Shown here piece by piece: positions 30,151-41,431 of a stretch of DNA of 64,000 nucleotides (positions within the stretch are counted from its first letter, which is position 1; each line of letters opens with the position of its first letter). A program made the translations under genes and the position numbers. This DNA comes from Pseudonocardia sp. (GTDB lineage: Bacteria; Actinomycetota; Actinomycetes; Mycobacteriales; Pseudonocardiaceae), in NCBI GenBank assembly GCA_025869365.1, contig JAOZVV010000196.1, forward strand, positions 1 to 64,000, given 5' to 3'. The notes under the pieces are model-generated. The model made no database searches. It had not been told where the DNA came from and saw only the letters and a list, made by a program, of their open reading frames with translations.

Positions 30151-31203
30151 TCAGCCGAGCAGCGGCTTCACGCGCGTCCCGAAGTCGTGGACGCCCTTCT
30201 CGAAGTCGTCGAAGGTGAACATCATCCCCTTGACCCCGGGCATGGCGGCGACCTGGTCGACCTGGCGCGCGATCGTCTCGTAGGAACCCACGAGCGTCGC
30301 CATGTTGAAGTTGACGGCCCCCTCGGGGAGGTTGATCGTCCGCGCGGTCCCGGAGCCGTCCGCGGTGGCGTCCTTGCTGCCCTCGTCGGACATGTAGCCG
30401 AGCGCGGCGGCGTCGGCGCCCTCGTTGTAGGAGGCCCACTTGGCCTGGGCCTCCTCGTCCGTCTCGGCCATGATCGCCATGAACAGCGGCAGCGAGCCGA
30501 CGTCCCGGCCGGACTTCGCCGCGGCGGCCGCGAGCTTCTGCGTCGGCTCCGCGTAGACCTGCGGGTCGTTGACGCCGGGGCTGAGGATGAAGTTGTAGTC
30601 CCCGTACTCGGCGCAGAACTCCATGCCGCGGTCGGACTGGCCGGCGCAGACGATGTCCACCTTGCCCGAGGGCCGCGGGGAGAGCACGCAGTCGTCCATC
30701 GTGAAGTACTGGCCGTCGAGGTCGCAGCGGCCGGTCTCCCAGAGGTCCCGGAGCACCTTCACGTACTCGGTGGAGTAGTCGTAGCGGTAGCCGAAGTAGT
30801 CGTCGCCGGGCCACAGGCCCATCTGCTCCTACTCCCCCTTCGCCCAGCCCGAGACGATGTTGACGCCGAAGCGCCCGGGCGCGATCGAGTCGATCGTCGA
30901 GGCCATCCGGGCGACCAGTGCGGGCGGCAGGGTGAGCACCGCCGTCGAGGCGTAGAGCTTGATCCGTTCGGTGACCGCGGCGAGCCCGGCCATCAGCGTG
31001 AACGACTCCAGGTTGTGGTCCCAGAACTCGGTCTTCCCGCCGAACCCGCGCAGCTTGATCATCGAGAGCGCGAAGGCGAAACCCTGGGTCTCGGCCTCCT
31101 GCACGATGCGCTTGTTCAGGTCGAACGTGGGCATGTACTGCGGAGAGTTCTCCGAGATCAGCCAGCCGTTGTTGCCGATGGGGATGAAGACGCCGAAGTC
31201 CAC
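30151..31203 (-). pseudogene. rutA: RutA-like pyrimidine monooxygenase interrupted by an in-frame amber codon
   Basis: From GTG 31203 (AGGAAGGGG upstream) the frame reads [39 protein letters not shown] and [15 protein letters not shown], then TAG at 30831-30829. It resumes in the same frame as EQMGLWPGDDYFGYRYDY to the stop at 30151. Ignoring the TAG gives 350 residues with clear RutA identity. As I recall it, E. coli RutA has WQKPEYEQMGIWPGDD here, so the TAG replaces a Tyr codon by one base. RutA uses FMNH2 and O2 to open the uracil ring. The gene overlaps the upstream LLM gene by 46 bases. It could be a pseudogene, a sequencing error, or two polypeptides made by restart at ATG 30822, which has GGGGGAG nearby. 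Confidence 0.85.
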
Positions 31204-32309
31204 GGGGAGCCCCTTCCTGGGGTGTCCGAACGGGTACCGGCCGCGGTGGACCGGAGAACGGGGGCGACCTCGCGGGCGAGGAGGTCGAGAGAGGCGCGGG
31301 CGTCCTCGACCGGCATGCCGGCCCAGTCCGTGCGGAGCACGAAGTGGTCGACGCCGATCTCGTCACGCCACGGGAGCAGGGCGGCCAGGCAGTCCTCGGG
31401 CGAGCCGACGACGAACCGGTCCTCCGCGAGGTCGGAGTACCCGGCGCGGAAGGACTCCTTGTCCGGCATGACGCGGTCCTGGCCCCAGTCCGCGTACACC
31501 GCGTACTTGCCGGCGAGGTGCGGGCGGGCGAGCTCGATCGCCCGCTCCCTGGTGGGCGCGCAGTAGATCTCGCGCATCAGCGGCAGCTCGCGCACCGGCT
31601 CCCGGCCCGCGGCGGCCCGCTCGGCGTGGAACAGGCCGAGCTGGCGCCGGATGGTCGACGCGGTGGCGTGCGGGTTGATCATCCAGGTGTCCGCGAGGCG
31701 GGCGGCCCGGCGGACCGCGCCGTCGCTGTTCGCGGCCATCCAGATCGGCGGGCGGGGGTCCGCCGCCGGCAGCGTCGTGGAGCGCACGCCGTCGAGGCGG
31801 CACCAGGGGTTGTCCGCGGTGACCGGCTCGCCGGACCACAGCTCCTCGACGATCCGGAGGTTCTCGGTGAACCGTCGGACCTTCTCCCCCGGCGGGATCC
31901 CGAAGGCCGCGTACTCCACCTCGCGGTAGCCCAGGCCCACCCCGAAGATGGAGCGGCCGCCGCACACCGCGTCCAGGCTCGCGTAGGCCTCGGCGGTGTC
32001 GACCGGGTTGTGCAGGGCGAGCAGGTGGATCCCGGTCCCGACGCGCATGTCCCCGGCCTCGGCGGCGAGGCGCGCCAGCCAGGGCAGCGGCTGGATGTGC
32101 GCGTAGGTCTCGCTGAGGTGGTGCTGGCCGCCGAACACCGAGTCCAGCCCGCCGTCCCGCGCGGCCCGGACCAGCGACAGCTGCTCCCCCAGCGCCGCGA
32201 CGGGATCGCGCCCCGCCGGCTGCTGATGGGTCAGGAACACCCCGATCTGAACCGCACCATGGCTCCTCGACTCGCCTTTCCCGGGGTCTCCCGCGCGGTG
32301 CGGAGCCAT
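31158..32309 (-). CDS. LLM-class flavin-dependent monooxygenase
   Basis: The start is ATG 32309 ([11 protein letters not shown]) or GTG 32324, which overlaps the PrpD stop. About 383 residues follow. The luciferase-like barrel is marked by [51 protein letters not shown] and [15 protein letters not shown], with the C-terminal [13 protein letters not shown]. Such enzymes use FMNH2 or F420H2. It lies between PrpD and the RutA-like gene in the GntR-regulated operon, so two different flavin oxygenases may act on one substrate. Its C-terminal 15 codons overlap the RutA-like start. Confidence 0.85.
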
Positions 32310-32316
32310 GATGCGG

Positions 32317-39838: not shown

Positions 39839-39920
39839 CGAGCAACCCCCGTACGGCCATCGGGTGCGGGTAGGCTGCCGGGACGACGCACCACGTCAGA
39901 CCGGAATGTGAGCCCTCCCC

Positions 39921-40802
39921 ATGACCCCTCCCCCGACTCCCGAGCCCCGGCTCTCCGACGCCGTAGCGGCGTCGGAGGGACCGCCGCCCGCGGAGAAGGC
40001 CGCTCCCGCGAAGCGCGGCTCCGCGCCATCGGCCCGCCTGCGGGTGCAGCGGGTCCGGCCCGCCTACCGGCAGGTGGCCGACGAGCTGCGCTCCCAGATC
40101 ATGCGCGGCGCGCTGGGCCCCGGTGAGCGGCTGCCGAGCGAGGCCGAGCTGAGCCGGGCGTTCGGGGTCAGCCGCAGCACCGTCCGCGAGGCGCTGCGCG
40201 CGCTGACCAGCCAGCACCTCATCGAGACGCTGCGGGGCGTGCAGGGTGGATCGTTCGTCGCAGCCCCGGACCCCACCCGTGTCGTCGAGGACGTCGGCAG
40301 CGCGCTGGGCGTCCTCGTCGCGACGCCGTACCTGCAGCTCGAGGACCTGCTCGAGGCCCGGCTGCTGCTGGAGCCCGCCGCGGCCCGACTCGCCGCGCAA
40401 CGGGCGGACGCGGAGACCGTCGACGCCGTCCGGGCCGCCGCGAACGCGCCCCGGGACCCGCAGGACCCGAGCGGGTTCGTCCCGCACCTGGACTTCCACA
40501 CCACGGTCCTCATGGCCACCGGGAACCTGATGTTCACGATGATGGGTCAGCCGGTGAGCGACGTCCTGCGCACCCAGCTGGACCGGGACACCGTCGCCCG
40601 CCGCGAGTGGGACGAGGTCGACGAGTGCCACCGGGTGATCGCCGAGCACATCGCGGCCGGGGAGGCCGAGGCCGCCGAGGACACCATGCGCAGCCACCTG
40701 CTGGACCTGCGGGGCCTCTACGAACGGGCGGCCTCCTGGCGGACCGCCCGGACCGAGGCCCGGGTCAGGGCGCGGGACGGGGAGAACGGGGACCGGACAT
40801 GA
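39921..40802 (+). CDS. GntR-family regulator, FadR/FCD subfamily
   Basis: ATG 39921 gives 293 residues. A disordered Pro/Ala-rich N-terminus (1-45) precedes the winged helix (about 46-115: RQVADELRSQIMRGALGPGE, LSRAFGVSRSTVREALRALT). The FCD effector domain follows, with the acidic/His metal site residues in LLEARLLLEPAAARLAA, HLDFHTTVLMATGN and ECHRVIAEHIAAGE. FCD regulators respond to carboxylic acids. Three matching palindromes within 7 kb suggest it controls the transporter and both catabolic operons. The stop overlaps the next ATG (ATGA). Confidence 0.92.
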   Translation: MTPPPTPEPRLSDAVAASEGPPPAEKAAPAKRGSAPSARLRVQRVRPAYRQVADELRSQIMRGALGPGERLPSEAELSRAFGVSRSTVREALRALTSQHLIETLRGVQGGSFVAAPDPTRVVEDVGSALGVLVATPYLQLEDLLEARLLLEPAAARLAAQRADAETVDAVRAAANAPRDPQDPSGFVPHLDFHTTVLMATGNLMFTMMGQPVSDVLRTQLDRDTVARREWDEVDECHRVIAEHIAAGEAEAAEDTMRSHLLDLRGLYERAASWRTARTEARVRARDGENGDRT

Positions 40803-41431
40803 CCTACGGCGAGCCCACGGACCACACCTACGCCCGGGCGGGCCTCGGCGCCTCGTTCCGGCGCGGCGCGCGGCCGGCGATCGTCGTCGTCGACCTGAGC
40901 AACGGGTTCACGGACCCGGAGCACCCGCTCGGCGCGGATCTGACCGACGTCGTCTCGGCCACCGCCGCCCTGGTCGAGGCGGGACGGCCGGCGGGGGTGC
41001 CGGTCGTCTACACGACGGTCGCCTACACCCCGGCGGACCTCGGGTCGGTCGTCTGGCTGCAGAAGGCCCCGGGGCTGGCCGCGCTGCCCGCGGGCTCGCC
41101 GGCCATCGAGATCGACGCCCGGCTCCCCCGCACGGACGCGGACCACGTCGTCACCAAGAAGGGCGCGTCCGCCTTCTTCGGCACCGGCCTGGCCGCGCTG
41201 CTGGCCGGGCTGCGGGTGGACACCGTCCTGGTCTGCGGCGCGACGACCAGCGGCTGTGTCCGGGCGACGGTCGTGGACGCGCTGCAGTCCGGGTTCCCGG
41301 TGCTCGTCCCGCGGGAGTGCGTGGGGGACCGCGCGGGAGGCCCGCACGAGGCGAGCCTCTTCGACATCCAGGCGAAGTACGGCGACGTCGTGGACCTCAC
41401 CGAGGCGATCGAGTACCTCAAGGGCCTCTGA
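40799..41431 (+). CDS. Isochorismatase-fold amidohydrolase (N-carbamoylsarcosine/maleamate amidase-like)
   Basis: ATG 40799 is coupled to the GntR stop. The 210-residue protein has the Asp-Lys-Cys catalytic triad: Asp32 in IVVVDLSNGFTDPEH, Lys120/121 in HVVTKKGASAFFGT and Cys153 in GATTSGCVRATVVDA, with the cis-peptide before Cys. DLSNGFTDP plus long active-site loops resemble N-carbamoylsarcosine amidase and maleamate amidohydrolase, which hydrolyse a linear amide or carbamoyl group. It is likely a second amide-hydrolysing step of the island. RutB, the partner of RutA in E. coli, belongs to the same fold. Confidence 0.88.
   Translation: MTYGEPTDHTYARAGLGASFRRGARPAIVVVDLSNGFTDPEHPLGADLTDVVSATAALVEAGRPAGVPVVYTTVAYTPADLGSVVWLQKAPGLAALPAGSPAIEIDARLPRTDADHVVTKKGASAFFGTGLAALLAGLRVDTVLVCGATTSGCVRATVVDALQSGFPVLVPRECVGDRAGGPHEASLFDIQAKYGDVVDLTEAIEYLKGL

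Follow-up and report, generated by a model that had tools for sequence, protein, structure and literature searches.

Which compound is degraded by a gene unit that places two flavin-dependent oxygenase families, amide hydrolysis and a set of coenzyme A (CoA) enzymes beside one GntR regulator? The question is raised by ten genes in a 64,000-nt stretch of DNA (the window) from Pseudonocardia sp. (GenBank assembly GCA_025869365.1, contig JAOZVV010000196.1, positions 1 to 64,000), a draft genome of 5.27 Mb in 200 contigs with 90% completeness. The initial annotation, made from the sequence alone, named ten gene families in this unit, and all ten were confirmed by Pfam and NCBIfam. Our reading is that a RutA-family monooxygenase and an amidase would open a cyclic amide, that the resulting branched diacid would enter the CoA arm, and that these steps belong to a single GntR regulon. 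We consider this reading to have an even chance of being right.

On the minus strand the genes run in the order MFS importer, MaoC, CoA-transferase, acyl-CoA dehydrogenase, amidase, MmgE/PrpD, LLM and RutA. The GntR/FCD and isochorismatase genes lie on the plus strand and diverge from them. The gaps from maoC to rutA are -4, +1, -4, +62, +7 and -46 nt (start codons as chosen), which argues for a tight operon. The hairpin just 3' of rutA probably ends the transcription unit, judging from its predicted stability (none of 200 shuffles was equally stable). The RutA-like oxygenase of the initial annotation is real, but its gene (30151-31203) lies mostly outside the range given for the island and is interrupted by an in-frame TAG that had been overlooked.

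Conservation was followed in 36 hand-chosen loci (class A), taken from the genus genomes and the best 80 of at least 585 named loci. Gene presence was scored as a match within a locus stretch of up to 20 kb, with 13 queries tracked. Because the loci are related, in part nearly identical (L040/L041), their counts are not independent and no probability is attached to them. Truncated loci (L094, L096 and L100), named copies of genus genomes and loci with a lone or split RutA gene (L170 and L173) were left out, as were the in-between clusters L110, L123, L138, L141 and L142. None of these in-between clusters showed an amidase or RutA, so adding them would enlarge the class with neither gene.

The initial annotation proposed a comparison of gene order among actinomycetes. 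The order recurs in Pseudonocardia and relatives, so the refuting outcome named there, an order conserved in no relative, did not occur. MaoC orthologs (E up to 1e-60) are found in 19 of the 62 genus genomes and RutA orthologs (at least 86% identity) in 18. Twelve of the 18 RutA genes are in clusters with a MaoC ortholog and four in a subtype without adjacent MaoC and CitE. The remaining two are that of G036 (L048/L173), cut by contig ends, and that of L170, which lies apart from the cluster. The best named MaoC match, among the best 80 of at least 585, is 96% identical and comes from a Pseudonocardia metagenome-assembled genome (L083). Uninterrupted clusters are present in named cultured species, e.g., P. 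ammonioxydans (L097) and several Actinomycetospora. RutA occupies two different positions within the operon, depending on the locus; in Actinomycetospora, which has the same gene set, it is found at the end or between the amidase and PrpD.

Comparison of the gntR-facing intergenic regions gave a near-palindromic consensus, RTGTCWGAYRTTTW. It occurs exactly in the window at 39821-39834 and 38299-38312, and a search of the whole genome at up to one mismatch gives no further site (reversed-pattern control, 0). At up to two mismatches the window contains three matches vs 0.08 expected in shuffles, the third being the reverse-strand echo of one site. A slightly wider pattern, RYGTCWGAYRTTTW, has 26 exact matches in the 62 genus genomes (reversed control, 0), one pair being the two strands of one site. 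Twenty-three of them are in or beside clusters; the other three are beside unrelated genes in G046 and G043 and at a contig end in G057. By our own tally, 16 of the 21 cluster-bearing genus genomes have an exact match at the cluster. An exact match is absent in cluster-bearing G025, G031, G053 and G061, and also in G057, where a contig end cuts the cluster 600 bp before maoC.

When one mismatch to a wider pattern was allowed, a match was found in all 36 class-A loci, and in 35 of them at least one site lies within a promoter-like pair of the form TTGxxx-16 to 19-TAxxxT. In 31 loci selected because they carry the motif, promoter-like boxes surround 36 of 74 matches, with spacers of 17 or 18. 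Many of the matches outside boxes repeat the same sites on the opposite strand, and for some the site itself has no boxes. Boxes were found at 0 of 20,000 random window positions and at 9 of 264 positions that have the A/T-rich end of the motif and come from these loci. The latter control is fairer; the random-position control is lenient, since the first bases of the -10 box already come with the motif. A sigma-70 scan of the window, under a rule stricter than the boxes described here, found no promoter. The motif also precedes PrpD in Actinomycetospora (L102-L105, L107, L108 and L111) and RutA in L088 and L092, in both cases without boxes. Copies with boxes stand ahead of a RutA-like paralog on a P. 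dioxanivorans CB1190 plasmid (L053) and, in L054, face an ABC-transporter binding-protein gene that is divergent from CitE.

GntR orthologs are found in 35 of the 36 class-A loci, the exception being L047, where a contig end truncates the locus. Both the DNA-binding and the FCD domain of the window protein score above the Pfam cut-offs, which places it in the FCD subfamily of the GntR family. The one apparent regulator of the initial annotation is supported at the sequence level, with two operator-promoter copies that are unique in the genome at up to one mismatch. It is very likely that the unit forms one dedicated GntR regulon, and GntR probably binds the operator and represses. The features are listed in Table 1.

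Table 1. Features of the GntR-controlled unit in the window
Feature	Coordinates	Strand	Evidence or remark
GntR/FCD regulator	39921..40802	+	PF00392 72.4 bits, PF07729 76.1 bits, both above cut-off
Isochorismatase-fold hydrolase, N-carbamoylsarcosine-amidohydrolase-like	40799..41431	+	Pfam/NCBIfam; 4-nt overlap with gntR end
MFS importer, nearest to aromatic acid/H+ symport family	38320..39717	-	205.2 bits, under cut-off 418.55
MaoC-type enoyl-CoA hydratase	37733..38260	-	PF19315 (mesaconyl-CoA hydratase) 68.1 bits, cut-off 26.5
Class III (CaiB/BaiF) CoA-transferase	36531..37736	-	Pfam/NCBIfam
Acyl-CoA dehydrogenase	35366..36529	-	Pfam/NCBIfam
Amidase-signature amidase	33768..35369	-	Nearest named family AtzE/biuret hydrolase, below cut-off
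MmgE/PrpD protein	32317..33705	-	6/7 IDS-epimerase active-site residues kept; Tyr145 position is His
LLM (luciferase-like) flavoenzyme, FMN- or F420-dependent	31158..32309	-	Start codon uncertain
RutA-family monooxygenase, in-frame TAG 30829-30831	30151..31203	-	Relatives have intact copies
Promoter-like TTGCTC-17-TAGCGT, operator core GTGTCAGACGTTTA (39821-39834) in spacer	39817..39845	-	Between gntR and MFS gene
Promoter-like TTGACC-18-TAGCCT, operator core ATGTCAGACGTTTT (38299-38312) in spacer	38294..38323	-	Upstream of maoC
Hairpin, 19-bp perfect stem, just 3' of rutA	30100..30141	-	-50.7 kcal/mol, z -6.56

Intact RutA proteins of relatives score 583.9 bits (L045) and 572.2 bits (L050) against the TIGR03612 equivalog cut-off of 498.3 and belong to this family. 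They align with E. coli RutA over the whole length. An FMN-reductase-like protein is encoded at L045:4037-4654. The second piece of the window RutA scores 313.3 bits alone, and the plasmid RutA-like paralog in L053 scores 388.4 bits, under the cut-off. The oxygen pocket of E. coli RutA includes Thr105 and Asn134, with Trp139 as a neighbour (excerpt of PMC10005588). By eye, with the numbering mapped by counting, Asn134 and Trp139 are kept here and Thr105 is replaced by Ser.

Both amidase and RutA are present in 27 of the 36 class-A loci. Four loci have the amidase only (L044, L048 at a contig end, L051 and L054), one has RutA only (L099) and four have neither (L039 with a RutA remnant, L090, L093 and L095). 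RutA and amidase are thus mostly present or absent together across these loci. There are 15 more distant RutA-like genes in the genus; of the seven examined, three adjoin a homolog of the window amidase, three a homolog of the window isochorismatase and one neither. RutA with an amide hydrolase is a recurring pair, which supports the proposed step order. The amidase is nearest to AtzE and biuret hydrolase (below the AtzE cut-offs), which are enzymes of ureido-type substrates.

Five families make up the CoA arm: class III CoA-transferase, acyl-CoA dehydrogenase, MaoC, MmgE/PrpD and, only in some relatives here, CitE. A CitE-type lyase is found in 13 of the 36 class-A loci, and those 13 hold all five families. 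The window has four of the five. Among 94 aligned PrpD proteins, including that of the window, all keep the catalytic His and the carboxylate-binding His, Asp/Glu, His, Lys and Lys of Msi, a set common to the MmgE/PrpD family. LLM is present in 35 class-A loci and was not detected in L053. Its structure model has a mean predicted local distance difference test (pLDDT) score of 81.9, and FMN-type monooxygenases, headed by 7bip, are the best PDB matches of the model, F420 enzymes ranking little lower.

From the gene families, their order, the operators, the conservation and the probable operon end described above, we infer a reaction order, a substrate class, repression and a ligand. An FCD-type GntR, probably a repressor, would act via the operator between the -35 and -10 boxes of two promoters. 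The first promoter would serve the importer gene, and the operator site there probably serves gntR on the other side too. The second would drive the maoC-CoA-transferase-acyl-CoA dehydrogenase-amidase-MmgE/PrpD-LLM-rutA operon. The importer would take up a small cyclic amide. Its ring amide would be cleaved oxidatively by RutA, working with a flavin reductase, and the amidase would strip the remaining ureido or amide nitrogen, in the role of E. coli RutB. A branched dicarboxylate with a four-carbon backbone would remain, possibly after an LLM step, and MmgE/PrpD would equilibrate its stereoisomers. Activation by the CoA-transferase, desaturation and hydration would then lead to cleavage by a CitE-type lyase, whose gene is part of the cluster in some relatives and would lie elsewhere in the genome in the window organism.

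A bolder reading, which we hold to be rather less likely than not, is an undescribed oxygen-dependent route in soil actinomycetes: RutA-type cleavage would act outside ordinary uracil breakdown and yield a methylsuccinate-type diacid that is burned via CoA thioesters. The substrate in that case would be a substituted pyrimidine, an imide or a similar cyclic amide, opened and then denitrogenated by the amidase. Candidate substrates are 5-substituted uracils, methylmaleimide, methylsuccinimide and pyridine-type rings, and the evidence favours none of them. No paper joining RutA with this CoA arm was found in the open-licence literature. The enzyme families are known and their combination appears to be undescribed.

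The proposed pathway has to be weighed against a number of observations in three areas, the first being RutA itself. The TAG at 30829-30831 was seen again (one TAG) in a genome-wide search of the same assembly. The interruption means that the front end is perhaps non-functional in this organism and that the RutA step may be lost. The closest relative, L039, has no amidase beside its cluster and only the RutA remnant, and no RutA match was found anywhere in the L039 genome. Both the TAG and L039 would fit a unit that is decaying in the window lineage and functional only in relatives, with a real stop; this explanation, compatible with any of the other readings, seems somewhat unlikely to us. 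In the comparison of rutA with L045, the numbers of nonsynonymous (dN) and synonymous (dS) substitutions per site are 0.041 and 0.423, and beyond the stop they are 0.049 and 0.373. The low dN relative to dS past the stop argues that rutA was constrained until recently, and the stop is therefore young or a consensus or sequencing error of the 200-contig draft. No other gene of the unit is interrupted and both operators are preserved, which also speaks against decay.

The second area is the link between the front end and the CoA arm. Three Saccharopolyspora loci (L090, L093 and L095) keep the CoA arm, LLM, the importer and CitE with no amidase or RutA in the stretch examined, so the arm can be independent of the front end. 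L168, L169, L171 and L172 are without MaoC and CitE beside the cluster. With the narrower operator pattern no match was found in L040-L043 or L091, and L091 is without a promoter-embedded site even under the wider pattern. The unit could then serve the plain use of a branched C5-dicarboxylate (methylsuccinate or itaconate), with RutA and the amidase as an independent uracil/thymine nitrogen-scavenging pair in the same operon. The Saccharopolyspora loci and the separate RutA gene of L170 speak for this. The RutA of relatives is moreover a full equivalog, and uracil and thymine are substrates of the E. coli enzyme (excerpt of PMC7662398). We nevertheless regard this explanation as unlikely. Uracil needs no CoA arm, RutA is tied to the operon in 16 of the 18 genus genomes with a close ortholog, and a more distant RutA-like paralog stands under the same operator on a plasmid. 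In addition, none of the cluster genes was assigned to a RutB-G family, and a genome-wide search for these families was not made.

The third area is the identity of the CoA-arm enzymes, none of which reaches any NCBIfam equivalog cut-off. MaoC scores 174.8 bits vs the RipB/Ich (NF038241) cut-off of 340; the best score in the genome search for RipB/Ich was 173.9 bits, and none of 14 control genomes rose above the cut-off either. The lyases of relatives score 156 and 154.8 bits vs the RipC/Ccl (NF038242) cut-off of 375. The named families nearest to the CoA-transferase are succinate-glutarate and succinyl-CoA:mesaconate CoA-transferase, both below cut-off. P. aeruginosa Msi has Glu91, and its second catalytic base is Tyr148 (excerpt of PMC12290011). 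The window PrpD has Asp in place of Glu91, and at the Tyr148 position (Tyr145 of IDS epimerase) His is found in 90 of the 94 aligned proteins, including 36 of 36 in class A; the exceptions, outside class A, are Tyr in three and Phe in one. No CitE lyase match was found in the window locus. The nearest lyases elsewhere in the window genome are 43% and 34% identical, and no CitE in that genome is under the operator. The 43% lyase adjoins another PrpD-type gene. Because the cut-offs are missed and the Tyr is replaced, we describe the CoA arm as resembling a branched-dicarboxylate pathway in function and refrain from assigning it to the methylsuccinate pathway, a label that was rejected as proof. 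A small dicarboxylate-type cluster on contig C42 of the window genome (L206) has PrpD 40%, CitE 41%, CoA-transferase 28% and MFS 30% identical to those discussed here, and it is a possible source of the missing lyase.

LLM-type ring cleavage is known from trigonelline and pyridine pathways. The LLM enzyme, not RutA, might open the ring here, and the arm might end in another dicarboxylate (formylsuccinate-, C6- or hydroxymethyl-type, from pyridine-ring cleavage), with only family-level likeness to the methylsuccinate enzymes. The missed cut-offs of hydratase, lyases and transferase and the differing Tyr position of PrpD would agree with this. LLM is also more widespread in class A than RutA (35 vs 28 of 36), and it recurs at 41-68% identity beside other MaoC/CoA-transferase/acyl-CoA dehydrogenase sets (L066, L067, L072 and L074). 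No ring hydroxylase or aldehyde dehydrogenase is among the families conserved in class A (13 queries tracked), and we consider an LLM-first route to be distinctly unlikely.

The isochorismatase is a local addition and is not conserved. Of the 36 class-A loci, two have it: the window and, with 42% identity and convergent to gntR, L052. It was not found in the closest relative L039 and was rejected as a core member. Its score of 28.7 bits vs the RutB (TIGR03614) cut-off of 377.95 places it outside RutB. The initial annotation had derived its degradation scheme from two oxygenases and two amide hydrolases feeding CoA enzymes. Two flavin-oxygenase families, one amide hydrolase and a dicarboxylate-type arm are retained from that scheme, but the isochorismatase is not. 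The substrate class named there, an N-heterocycle, imide or cyclic amide, stays putative. In L178, L179 and L174, RutA-like genes directly adjoin isochorismatase hydrolases resembling that of the window, and in L178 a PuuE-like allantoinase relative, which misses its cut-off at 100 bits, also lies next to the RutA-like gene.

Actinomadura, Micromonospora, Nocardioides and others have another, more distantly related type of cluster. It contains MaoC, CoA-transferase, PrpD, acyl-CoA dehydrogenase and often CitE, together with an LLM-like gene (by eye) and extra genes. In L112, L133, L139 and similar clusters of this type, genes resembling LLM, RidA and thiolase were seen by eye. P. dioxanivorans CB1190 has two cluster versions, one on plasmid pPSED01 (L053/L101), with two amidase-like genes, and one on the chromosome (L172). 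Beside a RutA-less cluster, the stretch L044:98-6623 holds convergent genes that by eye resemble a molybdenum hydroxylase, a CoA ligase, an oxidoreductase and two polysaccharide-deacetylase-type hydrolases.

Downstream of the hairpin, the minus strand of the window at 24701-30057 encodes an aldehyde dehydrogenase, a PPOX-type flavin protein, a GATase1-like protein, a LacI regulator, a ribokinase-like kinase and one unassigned protein that is cupin-like by eye. A LacI-like palindrome, TAGAAACGATTCTA, is seen by eye at 30044-30057 ahead of the aldehyde dehydrogenase gene. These genes were rejected as members of the unit, since the 19-bp hairpin intervenes, the palindrome stands ahead of them and the neighbouring aldehyde dehydrogenase was not found at the clusters of the relatives searched.

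If the bolder reading is true, the pathway would be a natural soil source of methylsuccinate-like acids and would give flavin-N5 oxygen chemistry a second role. Until recently it was unclear where methylsuccinate comes from, and the reduction of itaconate by gut bacteria is a newly found source (excerpt of PMC12290011). An actinomycete regulon that combines RutA with an amidase and a methylsuccinate-like CoA arm would point to another possible source and to a substrate class without assignment in the open-licence literature searched. The operator offers a direct handle, in that a compound releasing GntR would be a candidate substrate or intermediate.

The initial annotation knew of no named pathway with this gene set. 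This is only partly right, because the itaconate/methylsuccinate clusters of Proteobacteria are similar to the CoA arm (excerpts of PMC9875883 and PMC12290011). Compared by gene families as published in these excerpts, the clusters of Pseudomonas aeruginosa and Cupriavidus necator (ich, mcd, mmgE/msi, ict and ccl) have the same five families. The unit described here differs in that LLM, RutA and an amidase are added under one GntR operator, that PrpD has His and not Tyr and Asp and not Glu, and that the window locus has no lyase. According to the excerpt of PMC12290011 (2025), 96.2% of methylsuccinate isomerases are from Pseudomonadota. An Azospirillum brasilense plasmid cluster (L164) carries the five CoA-arm families with GntR, MFS and amidase genes, and its PrpD is 53% identical; it differs in gene order, in an additional TRAP transporter and in that no RutA or LLM is annotated in 17 kb. 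The five families also occur together in plasmid clusters of Pseudosulfitobacter and Caballeronia (the latter unannotated; tblastn). Two other candidates were rejected as five-gene clusters: the Cupriavidus necator C39 plasmid (L165), in which the other four families are not beside the PrpD gene (47%), and Amycolatopsis AA4 (L167), which has MaoC, CoA-transferase and CitE without PrpD and dehydrogenase.

In Haloarcula, a class III CoA-transferase (Mct) is active on methylsuccinate and Mch is a MaoC-type mesaconyl-CoA hydratase; these enzymes belong to the methylaspartate cycle, with a two-domain hydratase and other partner genes (excerpt of PMC5592240). The E. coli Rut pathway (rutABCDEFG) shares the RutA family and the proposed logic of ring amide opening followed by a hydrolase, RutB there hydrolysing the ureidoacrylate that RutA makes from uracil (excerpt of PMC8113886). 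The Rut label was rejected as proof, as only RutA fits. In contrast to the E. coli pathway, the hydrolase here is of the amidase-signature type and not RutB, and the product would enter CoA metabolism.

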